Shown here: piece by piece, positions 13,738 to 23,787 of the stretch | How the letters are laid out: each line of letters starts with the position of its first letter | Numbering within the stretch: position 1 is the stretch's first letter | Virus record (IMG/VR): IMGVR_UViG_3300009428_000062 | Span: 1 to 25,986 of that record | Length of the DNA stretch: 25,986 nt | Direction: 5' to 3' (one strand) | From: a virus | The notes under the pieces: generated by a model | Told to the model about the DNA's origin: nothing | Seen by the model: only the letters and a program-made list of their open reading frames with translations | Databases searched by the model: none | Translations under genes and position numbers: made by a program

Positions 13738-14153
13738 TTAACTAAATCCTCTAAGTTGGGGGGTCTATAATTTGGTCCTTTTATTATCTTTCCATCTTCT
13801 CTATACACTGGTTTGCCGTTGTCATCTAGCTTAGACATATTACTATCGTGTACCCTATTAAATGCCACTTGTATATCTAAACCTAAAGCTACTGCTGCAC
13901 CAGATAGAACATACTGTAAGTCACATAACTCTTTTAACAAATTATTTTTCTGTTGTAAAGAGACATTTTTACCTCTCTCTAAATCAATAAGCATGTTACA
14001 GAACTCTTCCATAACTTCTCCTGATTCTTCCCTAATTAGTTTTAATCGGAACTCTAATAACTTAACAGTCCAAGGTTCATCTATTGGATGGTTAAACTTG
14101 CTGTGAAATTCTAATACAGTATCTTCTCTGTTATGCGTTTTCATCATATTCAT
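13734..14153 (-). CDS. MazG-like / PRA-PH-type nucleotide pyrophosphohydrolase (139 aa)
   Basis: All-alpha NTP pyrophosphohydrolase signature: E42-E43-x-x-E46 in the helix RLKLIREESGEVMEEF, and E75-x-x-D78 in the second helix (KELCDLQYVLSG). These four carboxylates bind Mg2+ in the MazG/HisE fold. The C-terminal part (VHDSNMSKLDDNG, then GPNYRPPNL) matches the tail seen in many phage members. The enzyme would hydrolyse a (d)NTP to the monophosphate and pyrophosphate; its natural substrate in phages is debated (non-canonical dNTPs or (p)ppGpp). The start has AAGG about eight bases upstream and overlaps the DUF3310 gene by 23 bases; Met3/Met4 are alternatives. Co-location with RNR fits nucleotide pool control. 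Confidence 0.87.
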   Translation of the reverse strand: MNMMKTHNREDTVLEFHSKFNHPIDEPWTVKLLEFRLKLIREESGEVMEEFCNMLIDLERGKNVSLQQKNNLLKELCDLQYVLSGAAVALGLDIQVAFNRVHDSNMSKLDDNGKPVYREDGKIIKGPNYRPPNLEDLVK

Positions 14154-14496
14154 TTATCAACCTTTTCAAATAGTATTCACATTTCTTTAAATCTTCAAGT
14201 GCTGTGCCTTTATATGGGTGTCTCCATATATACTTGAAAGCATTTTGCCAACAGTAGTGTGCGTGACTAGAAGGTAGTGTAGCACCATCAGACATGGCTT
14301 TCATAGCTTCTATACACTCTATACCTATAGTATTATAGTGAGGGGGGCTATTAACCATATCTGTCTCATTGTGGTCAAATGTTGTTTCGCCAGTTAATAC
14401 TATAGGATTACACACTTCGCATTCAGCACATTTTAAATCATCATCTAATATGCAACCACATTTAGAACATGTTTCTGTAGCCCATACGTTATTCAT
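14131..14496 (-). CDS. DUF3310-type phage protein with N-terminal zinc-ribbon-like cysteines (121 aa)
   Basis: Residues about 48-118 carry the DUF3310 signature: SPPHY...GIECIEAM, then a C-W-Q-N-A-F-K-Y-I-W-R-H-P-Y-K-G core and an EDLKKCEYYLKRL helix. Phage proteins with this domain are often labelled nucleotide kinase because T7 gp1.7, a dTMP/dGMP kinase, is of this general type; whether this protein is a kinase cannot be seen from the sequence. Residues 10-29 add six Cys (10, 13, 15, 23, 26, 29), an arrangement able to bind zinc that the plain domain does not need. The start has AAGGA six bases upstream. It lies between an unknown gene and the MazG-like gene in the nucleotide-metabolism block. 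Confidence 0.82.
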   Translation of the reverse strand: MNNVWATETCSKCGCILDDDLKCAECEVCNPIVLTGETTFDHNETDMVNSPPHYNTIGIECIEAMKAMSDGATLPSSHAHYCWQNAFKYIWRHPYKGTALEDLKKCEYYLKRLINEYDENA

Positions 14497-16169: not shown

Positions 16170-17093
16170 TTATACTCCTTCTAGTTCATCTGTATCTATG
16201 AATTGGTCTATCAAACCTTTATCATCATCGGACATTTTATCCTTTGAGTTGGTGTGGTGCGTGTCAGACACCCAAGTATTAAATGCAGCAATCCAATCCA
16301 GAAAGTTTTGTAAGGTTACTTGGTCATCGACTGTTATATCAATAGACTTGCTATCTAATTTAGCAGTAATGACAAAGTATGTGCCACCCGATATCTTATC
16401 TTTTTCTTCAGTAGAGAAGTCAATAAGATGTTGGATAGGTAAGTGTTGCATAGATGCGAGTTTGTTAAAAGGCTCACCCATATTTTTAAAGGATACCTTA
16501 CTATCTGTCTCAAATAAAACAGGCATCTCAAAATCATCTACTGGAGAACCTATAGCATCCGTAGCATCTTTAACTACTGCAATACCGAAGATATGTCTCT
16601 GTCGTTTAATTTGAGAGTATATAGCTTTAGTTTTTTCAGGTAGAGAACTATAGTCCTGTATGTAACCTGCTGTTTTACCACAGTTAAATCCACCTGATGT
16701 ATCCATCAAGTCATTGTTTAAGCTATCGGACAGTACAGTTTTTATATACTCTCCTCTTTTGCCTGTATCCGCAGACTTCTTAGGGTCAAAGGATTGAAAC
16801 CTTTGGTAAGACTGTCGTTGCATAAAAGGTCTAAGAGAAAGAGTAGGCATGTATATCTCTTCGCCATCCGTCTTGCGAATAACTAAAGAACCCGCAGGAA
16901 CAACTTCCATTTTTACTTTCTTACCATTTACATCCTGTGTACCCATGATAGCTTCTCGTAATACTTTAACTCTAGCTAATTGAGAAGTCTTCTTATCCGT
17001 TCCAGAGTTAGTAGGTGCAGTCGCAACTCCCATAACTTTAGCCATGTCTGCAAAGTTTATAGAGCCGTTAGATGTTATTAATTCATTACTCAT
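16170..17093 (-). CDS. Probable ssDNA-binding protein, gp2.5-like in position (307 aa)
   Basis: The ATG at 17093 follows the polymerase stop by two bases and has AGGA about nine bases upstream, inside the end of the polymerase gene; a frame-extending ATG at 17120 is less likely. The middle of the protein has alternating beta strands and many Ser/Thr/Lys/aromatic residues (LRPFMQRQSYQRFQSFDP; a lone Cys in GGFNCGKTAGYIQDY). The last 20 residues are very acidic (SDDDKGLIDQFIDTDELEGV), as in SSB and T7 gp2.5, where the tail recruits polymerase and primase-helicase. Its position between polymerase and exonuclease matches a replication accessory. No sequence family was firmly recognised, so the call rests on tail, composition and context. 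Confidence 0.6.
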   Translation of the reverse strand: MSNELITSNGSINFADMAKVMGVATAPTNSGTDKKTSQLARVKVLREAIMGTQDVNGKKVKMEVVPAGSLVIRKTDGEEIYMPTLSLRPFMQRQSYQRFQSFDPKKSADTGKRGEYIKTVLSDSLNNDLMDTSGGFNCGKTAGYIQDYSSLPEKTKAIYSQIKRQRHIFGIAVVKDATDAIGSPVDDFEMPVLFETDSKVSFKNMGEPFNKLASMQHLPIQHLIDFSTEEKDKISGGTYFVITAKLDSKSIDITVDDQVTLQNFLDWIAAFNTWVSDTHHTNSKDKMSDDDKGLIDQFIDTDELEGV

Positions 17094-17095
17094 AT

Positions 17096-19141
17096 TTATA
17101 CGTCCTTTGTTTCTAGCCAATTTGGTCCTATCTTGGCTTCTAATAATAATGGTACGTTGAAGTCTACCCCATAGTACTCGTTAATTAGGTCGTGCAGATT
17201 TTCATTCAAAGTATTTACTGCTGCTATCACCTGTTGCTCTTCATTAGGGTGGACATCTACCACAATCGAATCATGTACCGTGTTTACCAGACAACTATAG
17301 TTGTTGTCAAGAAGTTTTTCAAACTCTAGTAAAACTATTGGAACAATGTCTCCTGTTGCAAATCCTTGCACAGGATAATTTTTTATCATAGTGAAGTTAG
17401 TTACGCTTCCATTGGCTCTCCTTTTCATATTTTCAAATTCATATTGTCTTCCAGAAGGTGTCTGTATTCTGCCTGTATTAATAGCTTCAGTAGCTAATCG
17501 ACTATGCCATTTACCTATGCCACTATACTTAGTTGTGAACTGTTTGTAGTAAGAAGCTTCAGCAGGTGTTCTACCATAACCACTAGCTCCGTACAAAGGA
17601 GCAAATGTATGAGCCTTAGCTTCTTGTCTAGACGTAGGTTGCCCTGCATCTGAGATAACCTTAGCAGTGTAAGCGTGGACATCAAAGCCTGTAGACACTT
17701 CCTTCATAGCTACTTCGTCTTGACCTAAGAATGCAGCGACTCTAAATTCTAACTGAGCAAAGTCAGCTTCCATTATTTGACCGCCTTCCCATCTGGATAC
17801 AAATACTTTCTTTACAGGAAACGTACCGCCTCTAGGCATGTTCTGCATGTTAGGATTACGTCCACTGAATCTACCTGTAGATGTAATGTGCTGAGTCAAT
17901 CCTACGTGCAAGAAGTTATCCTCTTTGGTAAATATATCTATAGATTTAATATACGTATTAAGATAAGTTTCAAGTGCTGAAAGTCTTCTCAAGTTCTTTA
18001 AAAAGTCTCGTTGCATAGTCAAGCCTTTACCGTTAGCTAATGTTTCTAGTTTTTCTATGTTTCCTTTTGATGTTGAGAATCCACCTGCGGATACCCAATT
18101 CTTGCTAGGTGCGGTAAAGCGTAAACCTGCCACACGATTAGTATCAACAAGATAATAGCCAGTTGCATCGCAAGACTTGCACTTCGTAGGCTTTTTAAAT
18201 AGTGAGCCGTCCTTCCTTCTTTTGTGAACATATTTATTTCCTTTACATTCATCACACATGTAAGCTTTAGTCTTGTACATAATCTGCATATTAACATCAA
18301 CAGACTTTTTAAACTCTGCGTCTGTAGAAGTATGCTCAAACAACTCTTCGCCCCATATATGTTTGTCTATTACCTTTCTACTAAATATAAGTTGAGATAC
18401 TTGCTCTGGTGAATTAAGATTGATAGGTGTGTCACCCATGAGTTCTTTAGTTGTTTTCTCTAAAGAATTTAGTATATCATTCCTTTCTTTTTCAAACTCA
18501 TCTCTTACTTCGTATAAGGTTTCTCGATTTACTTTCAAACCATTCATATACATTTTAGTTAAGGCTCTGCATACTTCGTTTGTAATCTTGAGTACATTAC
18601 ACAGTGAATGATTCTCTTGGTCTTTGTATCGTTTATCTAAAGCTAAGAACAGTGCTCTAGTTACAAATATATCCGCATCTAAGTACTCACTTAGTTCTGC
18701 ATGAGGTATATCTTTTGTGTTGTATCCTTTCTTGAAATACTCTTTAAGAGTGTCTTGTTTCTTGTATGGTAGCTTATACCTTTCAGCACAAGCCTCTAAA
18801 GACAAAGGTTTCTTAATTCCTCTGCATAGTATATACTCAGATAACATTGTATCATATATGTCACCATCGTATTTAAAACCACAAGACCATAGCCATTGCA
18901 AATCATGTTGAGCATTGTGCATAATAAGTAATGTAGTCTTATCTAATGTCTCCTGCAAACTATGAGGTAAGTCAGGAGTAGCTGTATCGGAGTGGTCGTA
19001 TGTATATATAGTCGGGTGCTCATCACTGTCAACATCAGCTAGACCAACCATAGTTAAAGAGTTCTGTGGTTCAAAAGGGTCTAAGTGTAACTTGCCCCCT
19101 CTTGTTGTTGTAGTATTTTCTACGTCTAAAGCTAATCTCAT
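17096..19141 (-). CDS. Family A DNA polymerase with internal DnaJ-like zinc finger (681 aa)
   Basis: Replicative polymerase with proofreading. The 3'-5' exonuclease domain has D6/E8 (ALDVEN), HNAQHD (Asp80) and YLDADIF (Asp157). Residues 241-252 carry the thumb motif N-L-N-S-P-E-Q-V-S-Q-L-I. Four cysteines follow at 296/299 (CDECKGNKY) and 321/324 (CKSCDATGYY), spaced as CxxCxGx...CxxCxxTGY like the DnaJ central zinc domain, and inserted before the STSKGNIEKL helix. The polymerase motifs are complete: A (Asp460 in DFAQLEFR), B (Arg505, Lys509, Phe513, Tyr517) and C (His623-Asp624). Phe513 aligns with E. coli Pol I Phe762. This polymerase-plus-DnaJ-finger layout is the feature I associate with HMO-2011. 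The start has AGAGG about ten bases upstream, 21 bases after the helicase stop. Confidence 0.96.
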   Translation of the reverse strand: MRLALDVENTTTTRGGKLHLDPFEPQNSLTMVGLADVDSDEHPTIYTYDHSDTATPDLPHSLQETLDKTTLLIMHNAQHDLQWLWSCGFKYDGDIYDTMLSEYILCRGIKKPLSLEACAERYKLPYKKQDTLKEYFKKGYNTKDIPHAELSEYLDADIFVTRALFLALDKRYKDQENHSLCNVLKITNEVCRALTKMYMNGLKVNRETLYEVRDEFEKERNDILNSLEKTTKELMGDTPINLNSPEQVSQLIFSRKVIDKHIWGEELFEHTSTDAEFKKSVDVNMQIMYKTKAYMCDECKGNKYVHKRRKDGSLFKKPTKCKSCDATGYYLVDTNRVAGLRFTAPSKNWVSAGGFSTSKGNIEKLETLANGKGLTMQRDFLKNLRRLSALETYLNTYIKSIDIFTKEDNFLHVGLTQHITSTGRFSGRNPNMQNMPRGGTFPVKKVFVSRWEGGQIMEADFAQLEFRVAAFLGQDEVAMKEVSTGFDVHAYTAKVISDAGQPTSRQEAKAHTFAPLYGASGYGRTPAEASYYKQFTTKYSGIGKWHSRLATEAINTGRIQTPSGRQYEFENMKRRANGSVTNFTMIKNYPVQGFATGDIVPIVLLEFEKLLDNNYSCLVNTVHDSIVVDVHPNEEQQVIAAVNTLNENLHDLINEYYGVDFNVPLLLEAKIGPNWLETKDV

Positions 19142-19162: not shown

Positions 19163-20389
19163 TTATGCAGTGTATCTAGATATAGCACCGTCTAATACTA
19201 CATTCATACTACCATGCCAACCGCCTGTCAACTTATTTTTAGCTATAACTAAATATCGTACAGGGCTATCCTCTTCTTGTCCTTCTACAGGAGCGTTCTT
19301 ACCGATAAGAATCATAAGGTCAGCTTCCGCTGCTTTACCTGTTTTAGAACCTTCAAGCATAGATTGATTCAAGCTCTGAGCTTTACCTTCCGCTTCAGCA
19401 GATAGTTGACTCATCCAGAAGATAGCACAGTTGTGTTGTTTCGCTATGTTTCTAGCGTAGATAGCTGCATCTTTCAAGTATACGTCAGACTTGTCTCCTG
19501 TACGAGCAGCAAACTTGTCACCCATATCCATGACCACAACATCAGGACTGTAAGTCTTTACCACCTGTTCAACCCAAGCTAAGTCTTTGCCAGTACAATC
19601 TTTGATATGTAAGTTGCCACGAATCTTTTCATATAGCATACCTGCTTTGGCAGGATTATTCTTTACATCCATCAAAGACATTCCTGTAGCTGCACTGAGA
19701 TACCTAGCTCCAACTCTGTGATATGCTTCCTCGTTGAGAAGCACTAAACACTTAGCTCCTTGATGAGCAAAACCTTCTGGACCTGCAATCAAACTAGCGT
19801 GAAAGCTAGTCTTACCTGTATTAGGTCTAGCTCCTACTATAACTAAGTGACCGCCATTGATACCTTCAATACGTCCAGACAATGTAGGAATGTTGAACTT
19901 CCATTGAGCTTCCAAGTCATTGAGTTGCAATAGTGTATCTACAGAGATGTCTTCCCAATTAACTTTCATGTTCGGTAAGAAGTCATCGTTGTAAGACTCA
20001 ATCATTCTACGCAATGGCTCTAATGAGTTAGCTTCACCATTGACGTAATCAAATCCGATGTTCGCTATGTCCTCACCTATGCTTTGTCTGAATAAACTAG
20101 ATAGTACATCTTGAGCTATCTCTTTCGTCATAGGTTGTTCTTTCTGTAGCTGATAGAACAGGTTCTTATACATCTGCTTGTTGGCAGTTGTAATGGTCGT
20201 GTTGTTCGTCAAGAAGATAGCTTCTAGTTCTTCAGGTGTAAGAGTACGCTCATACTTATCCATAGCGTAATCTATAGTTTGTTTAAGCTTCCGTACATCC
20301 TTAGAGAATAGTTTGTCAGGACAGCGACTGCCTTTGTGGTCTTCGTAAAAGTCTCTGTCCATCAAAGACCGTAATAGTGATAGTTCCAT
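19163..20389 (-). CDS. Replicative DNA helicase, DnaB/T7 gp4 helicase-domain type (408 aa)
   Basis: RecA-fold hexameric helicase: Walker A GARPNTGKTS (residues 186-195), a LLNEE stretch after it, Walker B VVVMD (Asp288) and the SQLS motif (Gln328) typical of motif H3. Near the end are SKTGKAAEADLMI and IAKNKLTG with the Lys/Arg-finger region. The N-terminal 150 residues are helical and lack a primase zinc finger or Toprim, so primase function is in the separate gene at 21964-22773. The ATG at 20389, just after the ThyX stop, is preferred over the overlapping ATG at 20401 because GAAGGA abuts the latter directly. It should unwind the fork ahead of the family A polymerase. Confidence 0.92.
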   Translation of the reverse strand: MELSLLRSLMDRDFYEDHKGSRCPDKLFSKDVRKLKQTIDYAMDKYERTLTPEELEAIFLTNNTTITTANKQMYKNLFYQLQKEQPMTKEIAQDVLSSLFRQSIGEDIANIGFDYVNGEANSLEPLRRMIESYNDDFLPNMKVNWEDISVDTLLQLNDLEAQWKFNIPTLSGRIEGINGGHLVIVGARPNTGKTSFHASLIAGPEGFAHQGAKCLVLLNEEAYHRVGARYLSAATGMSLMDVKNNPAKAGMLYEKIRGNLHIKDCTGKDLAWVEQVVKTYSPDVVVMDMGDKFAARTGDKSDVYLKDAAIYARNIAKQHNCAIFWMSQLSAEAEGKAQSLNQSMLEGSKTGKAAEADLMILIGKNAPVEGQEEDSPVRYLVIAKNKLTGGWHGSMNVVLDGAISRYTA

Positions 20390-20390
20390 A

Positions 20391-21053
20391 TTATTTATCA
20401 TCCTTCATTAAATATTTCCAAGATACAGGAAACAATCGTTCCATCTCATCATTTACTTGGTCAGCAACCATTTTAGTTTCTACTTGTGCATCACCTGCAC
20501 ATCTTAGTCTGCACATGTCAGCAAATGCATCAAGGCTACCTGACCAAAACCATTCAGTCAAGTGGCTAATAGGCAACACCATACGAGCTTGCTCTTCACA
20601 TATACCTAGTTCTAATAGCTTACTGTACGATGCCATAGCTTCTGCTATTACTGCATTGTGATGAAAAGAAGCCAAGCTTTGAGTAGCTTCATCTTGAATT
20701 ACATCACCACTACCTTGCTTCTTGTCCTTAGTTTGTGAACGCCAGATAGCGGTATCAGGGTCATCCATACTAGGTCTATACCAATTAGGTCTGGTGTCTA
20801 CGTAGCGTCTACTGATTTCATTCCATCGTAAAAACTTGTGCTTCACTAATTGTCTAGCTACAAAGATTGGAGCTTGAACTTTGAATGAAGCAAAGCAATG
20901 ACCGAAAGGTGACATATGTTTATGCTTCGCTAGATACGCAATGAGTTTTGCATCTGCATCTATAAATGTTTTCTTATTTACATTAAAACTAACTCTAGCT
21001 GCATTGACTACAGTTAAGTCATTACCCATGTAATTTATTAGTTGTACTTTCAT
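20391..21053 (-). CDS. thyX: Flavin-dependent thymidylate synthase ThyX (220 aa)
   Basis: It makes dTMP from dUMP with methylenetetrahydrofolate, FAD and NADPH. The ThyX signature is present as K71-H72-K73-x7-S81-x-R83 in VKHKFLRWNEISRRYVD, so the usual RHR triad reads KHK while the downstream Ser and Arg are kept. HMSPFGHCFASFKV upstream and FLP/LP-type ending helices (ARMVLPISHLTEWFWSGSL) fit the family, as does the length of about 220. The start overlaps the upstream stop as ATGA. It works with NrdJ to supply thymidine for an AT-rich genome. Confidence 0.94.
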   Translation of the reverse strand: MKVQLINYMGNDLTVVNAARVSFNVNKKTFIDADAKLIAYLAKHKHMSPFGHCFASFKVQAPIFVARQLVKHKFLRWNEISRRYVDTRPNWYRPSMDDPDTAIWRSQTKDKKQGSGDVIQDEATQSLASFHHNAVIAEAMASYSKLLELGICEEQARMVLPISHLTEWFWSGSLDAFADMCRLRCAGDAQVETKMVADQVNDEMERLFPVSWKYLMKDDK

Positions 21054-21963: not shown

Positions 21964-22773
21964 CTATACAGATGTTATTCTATTCATATTAATTAAACCA
22001 TCTAGACGTTTCAAGTCTACATAGTTTTTGTATTTAATGTCATCCTGCAAAGACATAGCGTGAACTATAGACTGAGTAGCTCGTAGTTCTTTAGTCAATG
22101 ACAATGTTTTGTTTTTAGCATCAGGGTCAAGAGCTACAATAACTTTGTGGTACTTACATAACTCTTGTCGGCTTTTACTAGATAAGGATGTGCCTAGCAA
22201 CGCAAAGCCAGTAGCATCCATGTTCTCAGAGATAGCAATTGCACTGATGACATCTTCTACGACTACAGCACAGTATGTATTGTCTGTCTTAGATGATAGG
22301 AAGAAGTCTGCCTTACCACTGTAGCGTAGCCACTTAGGTTGCTTGCCAGTTAGGGAACGCCCAACAGCATCTAATACCATACCGTTACGACTACGGATAG
22401 GGAATACGGCTCGTTCATCTTTTACATCGTAAAGTAAATACGTATCCTGTAGATTCCATTTGTCTATAAACTTATGCATAAACTTGTTATCTATATCGTG
22501 AGATACATATTCAGGGAATACAAACTTCTGTGGCTCTTGCGTAGATACAGCAAGGTTATTCTTTTTATTTAATATAGTAGCTATATCTTCCTTAGAATAA
22601 CCAGAACGTACTGCACCCTTTGTACCACAACCTAGTTTGTAACAGTTAAATATAGTAGACCCATCCATCTTAATAGCTGTAAAAGTTTTCTTACCTCTAC
22701 AGGAAGGACAATCAATGCGTACACTTTCTGCTTCATTTAATGCTAAGTCATCTATAAATTGTTTAATATTCAT
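21964..22773 (-). CDS. DNA primase with zinc finger and Toprim domain (269 aa)
   Basis: The zinc-binding domain is at the N-terminus: Cys22-x2-Cys25 and Cys44-x4-Cys49. A Toprim domain follows with VVVEDVISAIA (Glu173) and VIVALDPDAKN (Asp216, Asp218). This corresponds to the primase half of T7 gp4, making RNA primers for lagging-strand synthesis; here it is a stand-alone gene, with the helicase encoded two genes further on. After Asp218 only about 50 residues remain, and no helicase motifs. The start is the first ATG after the 108-bp intergenic region, with only a weak GGAA upstream. It is the first gene of the replication run if a promoter lies in that region. Confidence 0.9.
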   Translation of the reverse strand: MNIKQFIDDLALNEAESVRIDCPSCRGKKTFTAIKMDGSTIFNCYKLGCGTKGAVRSGYSKEDIATILNKKNNLAVSTQEPQKFVFPEYVSHDIDNKFMHKFIDKWNLQDTYLLYDVKDERAVFPIRSRNGMVLDAVGRSLTGKQPKWLRYSGKADFFLSSKTDNTYCAVVVEDVISAIAISENMDATGFALLGTSLSSKSRQELCKYHKVIVALDPDAKNKTLSLTKELRATQSIVHAMSLQDDIKYKNYVDLKRLDGLINMNRITSV

Positions 22774-22868: not shown

Positions 22869-22883
22869 AAGTGTTGCACACTT
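22869..22883 (-). terminator. Hairpin at the integrase stop codon
   Basis: AAGTGT-GCA-ACACTT on the - strand is a perfect 6-bp stem with a 3-base loop and starts inside the integrase TAA stop. It is followed by TTATAAAAAA, a short and interrupted T-run. It may attenuate transcription leaving the integrase gene. Confidence 0.45.
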
Positions 22884-23787
22884 ACAACACATTCCTTCGT
22901 GCTGTTAGGGCATTCGTAGCTGAAGTTAACGTATTCTTCATATATGGGTTGACTGAGTTAGGATTTTTGTGACCGCTTACACTCATAATCTGAGCTAAGT
23001 CTACTCCTGCGTCTACCATCTGCGTTACACCTGTCCTTCGCATATCCATAGCGTATAAGCCTTTAGGAAGACCACTGGCAGACTTTATGGCATTTACGTG
23101 TACTGATACCTGCCATTTAGTATATGGTTTGTAGCCTCCAGAAATAGTCTTTACAGACGGTGCAACATAATCTTGGAATCCAAATGCATCTTTCTGATGT
23201 ATAAGCATAGCTAACAGATTCTCCTCTATAGGTAAGAATACTGTAGCTCTTCGCTTGGATTGTTCTAGTGTCAATAACTTTTTATCAAAGTTTATAGAAT
23301 CCCAAGTTAACTCACGCATATCACCTACTCTTTGCACAAATTCATACGCCATATGTACTATAAGACCTATGTTACGCCACTTGAACTGGCTGTAAGAAGT
23401 ATCTAAGAATGTTTTTACTTGTTCAGGTGTCCATGTTGTATTTCTAGAGGTCTCTACTTGAGTTTTTATACCAGATATAGGGTTGACATCTAATACCTCT
23501 AGGTCAATGCCGTAGTTCAATACTTTACGCACCACTGCATGAGTAATGTTAGCTGTTCGCACACCTCTATCTAACCAAGTGTCATAAGCTATCTTGAATG
23601 TGCGTCTAGATAGGTCACGTACTCGCATATTAGCTAGGGTTACGTTCTCTACCTTGGTCATCAAGGCTCTGTTAAGTATATTTTTGTAATCTTTTTGTGT
23701 TTGGTCACGCAACTTAGTAAAATCGTGTGACTCCTTGTAGTGTTTAACTAATGTATGTAAATTACTTGTTCGTTTTGGTGTCATCAT
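22882..23787 (-). CDS. int: Tyrosine recombinase / phage integrase (301 aa)
   Basis: Site-specific recombinase. The N-terminal SAM-like core-binding region covers residues about 10-100 and the catalytic domain about 115-295. Catalytic residues: Arg153 in FVQRVGDMRELTW, Lys178 in the beta-hairpin LEQSKRR, Arg250 in MDMRRTG, His273 in SVSGHKN and the nucleophile Tyr282 in NPYMKN. The box II His of H-x-x-R is replaced by Met247, a variation seen in some phage integrases. Length is normal and no frame break is seen. The start is ATGATG three bases after the upstream stop, with AGGA about ten bases upstream; Met2 is an alternative. It lies between small early genes and the replication genes, implying early expression and a possible temperate lifestyle. 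Confidence 0.92.
   Translation of the reverse strand: MMTPKRTSNLHTLVKHYKESHDFTKLRDQTQKDYKNILNRALMTKVENVTLANMRVRDLSRRTFKIAYDTWLDRGVRTANITHAVVRKVLNYGIDLEVLDVNPISGIKTQVETSRNTTWTPEQVKTFLDTSYSQFKWRNIGLIVHMAYEFVQRVGDMRELTWDSINFDKKLLTLEQSKRRATVFLPIEENLLAMLIHQKDAFGFQDYVAPSVKTISGGYKPYTKWQVSVHVNAIKSASGLPKGLYAMDMRRTGVTQMVDAGVDLAQIMSVSGHKNPNSVNPYMKNTLTSATNALTARRNVL

Follow-up and report, generated by a model that had tools for sequence, protein, structure and literature searches.

The question raised by this locus is what a small, cysteine-rich insert contributes to the thumb of a phage DNA polymerase. The DNA analysed (the window) is the whole 25,986-nt stretch of IMGVR_UViG_3300009428_000062, which is from an HMO-2011-type marine phage; phages of this type have been described as widely distributed in the sea and dominant there (PMC9038755). 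A sequence-only reading had noted a DnaJ-like zinc finger within the family A DNA polymerase and had described the architecture as known from HMO-2011-type phages, with no function assigned to it. The published record agrees on both points: The GenBank record of HMO-2011 annotates DnaJ_CXXCXGXG in its polymerase, and three papers that appeared from 2019 to 2022 report that every HMO-2011-type polymerase contains part of a DnaJ central domain, with no function tested (PMC6918029, PMC8528129, PMC9038755). The finger architecture is already known and is not new. The useful additions of the present analysis are the predicted placement at the thumb tip, the charge, the sharing of the site with other polymerases, and the neighbouring gene; placement, charge, and the acidic-tailed neighbour turn a domain label into specific tests.

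The polymerase and its replication locus

The window polymerase matched the Pfam families DNA_pol_A (E = 1.7e-50) and DNA_pol_A_exo1 (E = 4.6e-5), and was assigned to PHROG 17. It is 59.4% identical to the polymerase of Puniceispirillum phage HMO-2011 over 681 residues, and the nearest isolate polymerases are approximately 57–59% identical across the entire protein. Whole-length matches were obtained in 12 records with 34–59% identity; these represent 11 isolates, because HMO-2011 was entered twice. The polymerases of HMO-2011, CRP-1 to CRP-738, and HTVC033P are products of the same gene, have the same domains, and share the position of the 'partial DnaJ' insert. The exonuclease domain, the full-length similarity, the two CxxC pairs with their glycines, and the gene context together identify the window protein as an HMO-2011-type DNA polymerase.

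The genes in the window are arranged in the order integrase, primase, helicase, polymerase, an unnamed gene, Cas4-like exonuclease, endonuclease, and ribonucleotide reductase. This order is like that of HMO-2011, in which the helicase and polymerase genes are also in the same order; the difference is that ThyX and one more gene separate the primase from the helicase in the window. The positions of the features discussed here are given in Table 1.

Table 1 Coordinates of features in and around the polymerase gene of the window
Feature	Position	Strand	Remarks
DnaB-like replicative helicase	19163..20401	minus	Upstream of the polymerase; Pfam DnaB_C E = 2.9e-11, PHROG 19
Family A DNA polymerase gene	17096..19141	minus	681 aa; 3'-5' exonuclease and polymerase domains
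Thumb helix H, residues 206–235	18437..18526	minus	AlphaFold2 model; E. coli Pol I alignment
Thumb H1 motif and helix, residues 240–255 (INLNSPEQVSQLIFSR)	18377..18424	minus	Model helix 245–253; aligns with Klenow FNLSSTKQLQTILFE
First stalk strand, residues 285–295	18257..18289	minus	AlphaFold2 strands 285–287 and 289–295
Predicted zinc finger, C296–C324 (CDEC...CKSC)	18170..18256	minus	Four Cys invariant in 69/69; DnaJ profile match
Basic hairpin, residues 300–320 (KGNKYVHKRRKDGSLFKKPTK)	18182..18244	minus	Net +8 in the window; among the most basic 21-residue segments
Second stalk strand, residues 329–337	18131..18157	minus	AlphaFold2 strand 329–337
Thumb H2 start and helix, residues 356–371 (STSKGNIEKLE...)	18029..18076	minus	Model helix 359–371; aligns with Klenow PSTSEEVLEEL
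Candidate partner, next gene downstream	16170..17093	minus	307 aa; acidic C-terminal tail MSDDDKGLIDQFIDTDELEGV

Conservation, charge, and DnaJ-type character of the finger

The translated sequence around the finger is YKTKAYMCDECKGNKYVHKRRKDGSLFKKPTKCKSCDATGYYLV, and its four finger cysteines are at positions 296, 299, 321, and 324. The two CxxC pairs claimed for residues 296–324 are therefore present as C296/C299 and C321/C324, and the range originally proposed, 18150–18280, covers the actual finger plus a few residues on each side. The flanks are also as claimed: INLNSPEQ, an N-x-x-S-x-x-Q motif at residues 240–247, precedes the finger, and GGFSTSKGNIEKL (residues 353–365), which leads into the STS helix, follows it.

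Conservation was determined in an alignment of 69 polymerase sequences that was non-redundant at 90%. In addition to the four cysteines, G301 and G328 were invariant. The two-CxxC pattern was found in 235 of 235 relatives whose sequence spans the region; of three further sequences that did not match, two were contigs ending before or inside the finger and the third was an unrelated finger-less polymerase (KBC54). Because the Cys and Gly residues are invariant in the alignment and the pattern is present in every spanning relative, the finger is, as judged by conservation, far beyond chance. The spacing between the fixed motif positions is 17 or 29–30 residues among the relatives. The motifs themselves are less uniform: 156 of the 235 relatives have the strict CXXCXGXG motif twice and 79 do not. 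Neither motif of the window finger is strict (CDECKGNK, CKSCDATG), and in the accepted isolate CRP-207, to which the window finger region is nearest (52.6%), the first motif is strict and the second is not. By these counts, the wording 'two CXXCXGXG motifs' used in the literature is looser than it sounds and needs correction.

The finger is also where the positive charge of the protein is concentrated. When the 69 sequences were averaged, the most positive 21-residue segments of the polymerase started at residues 300–304, inside the finger, and mean net charge reached +7 in the top segment, as compared with a whole-protein median of +1. Lys or Arg occupied positions 290, 307, and 309 in 99–100% of the sequences and position 320 in 88%.

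The insert had been described as having the look of half a DnaJ central domain, and profile comparisons support that description. The window polymerase scored 18.8 bits with Pfam DnaJ_CXXCXGXG, under the cut-off of 32.7; all 69 fingers matched PF00684 at E values up to 1, the best being 1.3e-7. When a profile of the finger family was compared with the PDB, it found the E. coli DnaJ Cys-rich domain (1exk) with E = 1.7e-5 and aligned to motifs 2 and 3; in DnaJ, these two motifs make up zinc centre II. The resemblance to PF00684 is thus seen through the family profile, the window copy itself being sub-threshold in Pfam. A model of the isolated finger was of moderate confidence (pLDDT 73.7). Its first Foldseek matches included BSD2, DnaJA2, UvrA, DnaJA3, and Anti-TRAP, each of them weak (E at least 0.26), and the highest-ranked fold matches, with Z about 3, were nearly all DnaJ-type zinc proteins, although individually not significant. 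The weak fold likeness extends to the zinc hairpins of UvrA, Anti-TRAP, BSD2, and lambda Q, which belong to different proteins and contexts. From profile and model together, we read the insert as a DnaJ-type hairpin that probably binds zinc.

The likeness is to motifs 2–3 of the DnaJ (Hsp40) Cys-rich domain, in which one CxxCxGxG starts a hairpin and a second CxxCxGxG closes it. DnaJ has four CXXCXGXG motifs, forming two zinc hairpins with two zinc ions, and a J domain, whereas the phage finger has two CxxC pairs in a single hairpin with a more basic loop, and Pfam scans of the polymerase found no J domain. The polymerase does not, then, have the composition of a DnaJ/Hsp40 chaperone.

Position of the finger in the thumb

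Thumb helices are named according to the Klenow scheme (general knowledge and PMC12529929). An AlphaFold2 model made with the family alignment had a mean pLDDT of 91.5 and a pTM of 0.84, with values of about 87–92 in the finger, and its best structural matches were the Bst, Taq, and Klenow Pol I enzymes with DNA. The elements of the model follow one another in the order H (206–235), H1 (245–253), short helices (260–266 and 274–284), strands (285–287 and 289–295), finger, strand (329–337), H2 (359–371), and I (375–404). When the polymerase was aligned with its counterparts from E. coli (Pol I) and T7 (gp5), the insert fell between Klenow FNLSSTKQLQTILFE (H1) and PSTSEEVLEEL (H2), and the T7 thioredoxin-binding segment preceded the T7 H1 motif FNPSSRDHIQ. 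Because the helix order in the model and the alignment agree, the predicted finger is assigned to the tip of the thumb, in the H1–H2 loop, and is distinct from the T7 insert. The sequence-only reading had put it in the thumb between the NxxSxxQ motif and the STS helix, and had placed the T7 loop on the opposite side of that motif; both statements hold, the T7 loop being between H and H1.

T7 gp5 is still a works-like comparison for processivity or docking: it, too, is a phage polymerase of family A, and its thumb has a large insert with basic residues nearby. Its insert, between H and H1, recruits host thioredoxin, whereas the window insert follows H1, and so is not a T7-type thioredoxin-binding domain, and has its own predicted zinc site. 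A short similarity between T7 DTREYVAGAPYTP and DTNRVAGLRFTAP was taken as chance, because the order of the elements differs.

The H1–H2 site is also occupied in family A polymerases that have no finger. An alignment of this polymerase family to its nearest finger-less relatives (Autographiviridae, Zobellviridae, and others) covered the helices H, H1, H2, and I (E = 4e-16). The H1–H2 inserts of these relatives (n = 84) are about 48–112 residues long and mostly basic, with a median net charge of +6. They lack cysteines, none of the 84 having two CxxC, and usually contain a basic hairpin turn such as YKNGKPKFK, SGKNKGxPKTK, or similar; StenR_269 has almost no insert at this site. Homology between the finger and the Cys-free hairpins was looked for and not detected: the profile–profile score of the inserts was 11.9, as compared with up to 13.4 for column shuffles, and in repeat comparisons 27, 71, and 56 of 100 shuffles were as good. 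We claim only that the site is shared. Because these Cys-free, mostly basic inserts share the H1–H2 loop, a basic thumb-tip hairpin may be a recurrent solution at the site. When 50,697 phage records were searched by tblastn with the finger region, matches were found only in the above 12 HMO-2011-type records, and the zinc version seems, within the records searched, to be specific to HMO-2011-type polymerases.

A conserved basic thumb hairpin was also noted in the finger-less phage polymerases of loci L282–L361, L087, L089, L092, and L266–L279. In Saratov-12, VP41s3, and QDWS535, the polymerase is split into two adjacent genes after approximately 400 residues (L087 156–2249, L089 153–2483, and L091 383–2298); scans of viral contigs with the N-terminal polymerase pieces of Saratov-12 and QDWS535 gave no matches.

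Possible functions of the finger

The reading we prefer, to which we would give a probability of roughly one-half, is that the insert is a built-in, zinc-stapled basic arm at the thumb tip that holds the new duplex DNA and thereby raises processivity. A two-stranded stalk would grow from the thumb tip between H1 and H2 and carry the hairpin, whose base would be pinned by one zinc ion held by C296, C299, C321, and C324, and whose loop is rich in conserved Lys and Arg. Closure of the thumb on the primer-template would bring this basic knob alongside the backbone of the new duplex, behind the active site. The longer contact between polymerase and DNA would then raise processivity with no separate host factor such as thioredoxin. 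If this is true, it is another route to processivity for a small phage polymerase that has no sliding clamp.

Several observations support a grip on DNA: the H1–H2 location, the invariant cysteines, the peak of positive charge, and the near-invariant basic residues at 290, 307, and 309; the mostly basic inserts of finger-less polymerases in the same loop; and the occurrence of DnaJ-type zinc hairpins in DNA-binding proteins (UvrA and Q-lambda, both weak fold matches). The thumb is known to contact the minor-groove backbone (PMC12529929), and both fidelity and processivity fell when the thumb of E. coli Pol I was truncated (Minnick 1996, cited in PMC10061031). Given the conserved positive charge and the location at the thumb tip, the target is more likely to be DNA or an acidic tail, and the charge fits an acidic protein tail equally well as DNA. 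Two further points speak against the grip. Most DnaJ-type zinc hairpins of known role bind proteins, and no sequence homology was detected between the finger and the basic hairpins of other phages.

The main rival explanation, because of a conserved acidic tail and precedents from T7 and SSB, is that the basic finger is a docking knob that binds the acidic C-terminal tail of the downstream protein, perhaps a phage SSB, and so couples the polymerase to the rest of the fork. The C-terminal 20 residues of this neighbour are acidic in 54 of 54 family loci (median net charge −6.5) and are typically the most acidic stretch of the protein; the median for other long ORFs in the loci is −1. The 12 isolate records with relatives of the neighbour are the same 12 in which the finger occurs, although core genes belonging to a single phage clade would be expected to occur together. 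T7 offers a precedent for such docking: its polymerase has basic patches near the thioredoxin-binding loop, and the helicase binds to them by its acidic tails (PMC12593628). An SSB contact has also been predicted at a polymerase thumb tip (PMC10061031). However, the charges of finger and tail were uncorrelated (Spearman 0.07, p 0.63, 53 pairs). The neighbour matched no family in Pfam, PHROG, NCBIfam, or PDB, and comparisons with SSBs, T7 gp2.5 among them, detected no similarity. Its identity as an SSB is a guess; it is possibly an SSB that has no detectable relatives. We regard docking as a possible function and offer it tentatively.

The DNA grip and docking are not exclusive, and both may be true. 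The finger could then be a self-contained module for processivity and coupling, in which the zinc-stapled basic knob at the thumb tip grips duplex DNA and is also the dock for the acidic tail of the co-encoded protein, perhaps an SSB lacking detectable relatives. Such a module would be a counterpart of the thioredoxin-binding loop of T7, but made from a DnaJ-type hairpin and located elsewhere in the thumb; as a complete description of the finger, we consider it doubtful.

Alternatively, zinc might serve only as a structural brace that stabilises a long thumb loop making no functional contact of its own. Folding alone would explain the invariant cysteines, and the length of the loop between them varies (17 or 29–30 residues), but the unusual net charge, together with basic residues that are nearly invariant although not at the zinc site, calls for a ligand, which makes a mere brace unlikely. 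A redox or zinc-sensing switch, in which oxidation of the Cys pairs frees the zinc and weakens the hold of the polymerase on DNA, would make use of four surface cysteines in CxxC pairs, and a passage of PMC9038755 has glutaredoxin encoded by some phages of the group; the pattern, however, is what an ordinary structural zinc site would show, and the DnaJ-like glycines are conserved as well, so that we consider such a switch very improbable. Recruitment of a host chaperone of the DnaK/DnaJ type, for which the resemblance to the DnaJ central domain and the mention of a DnaJ role in lambda replication (PMC9038755, ISME J 2022) provide an analogy, is highly unlikely, because the polymerase has no J domain by Pfam and only one of the two zinc hairpins, and its loop is far more basic than a chaperone contact needs.

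Some other features of the window were noted. The phage may be temperate, since a tyrosine integrase (22882–23787, minus strand) is encoded upstream of its replication genes. The primase-like protein (21964–22773, minus strand) has Toprim matches and an N-terminal CPSCRGKK...CYKLGC that resembles a zinc site, and a DUF3310 protein (14131–14496, minus strand) has an N-terminal Cys-rich stretch, CSKCGCILDDDLKCAECEVC, with the look of a zinc ribbon. In the O helix of the polymerase, the residue equivalent to F762 of E. coli Pol I is apparently a Phe, F513 (17600–17620, minus strand), which all 69 aligned sequences share. An HMO-2011-type polymerase was also found on a contig (L264) of the alphaproteobacterial single-cell assembly AG-899-M17, a possible link to a host.
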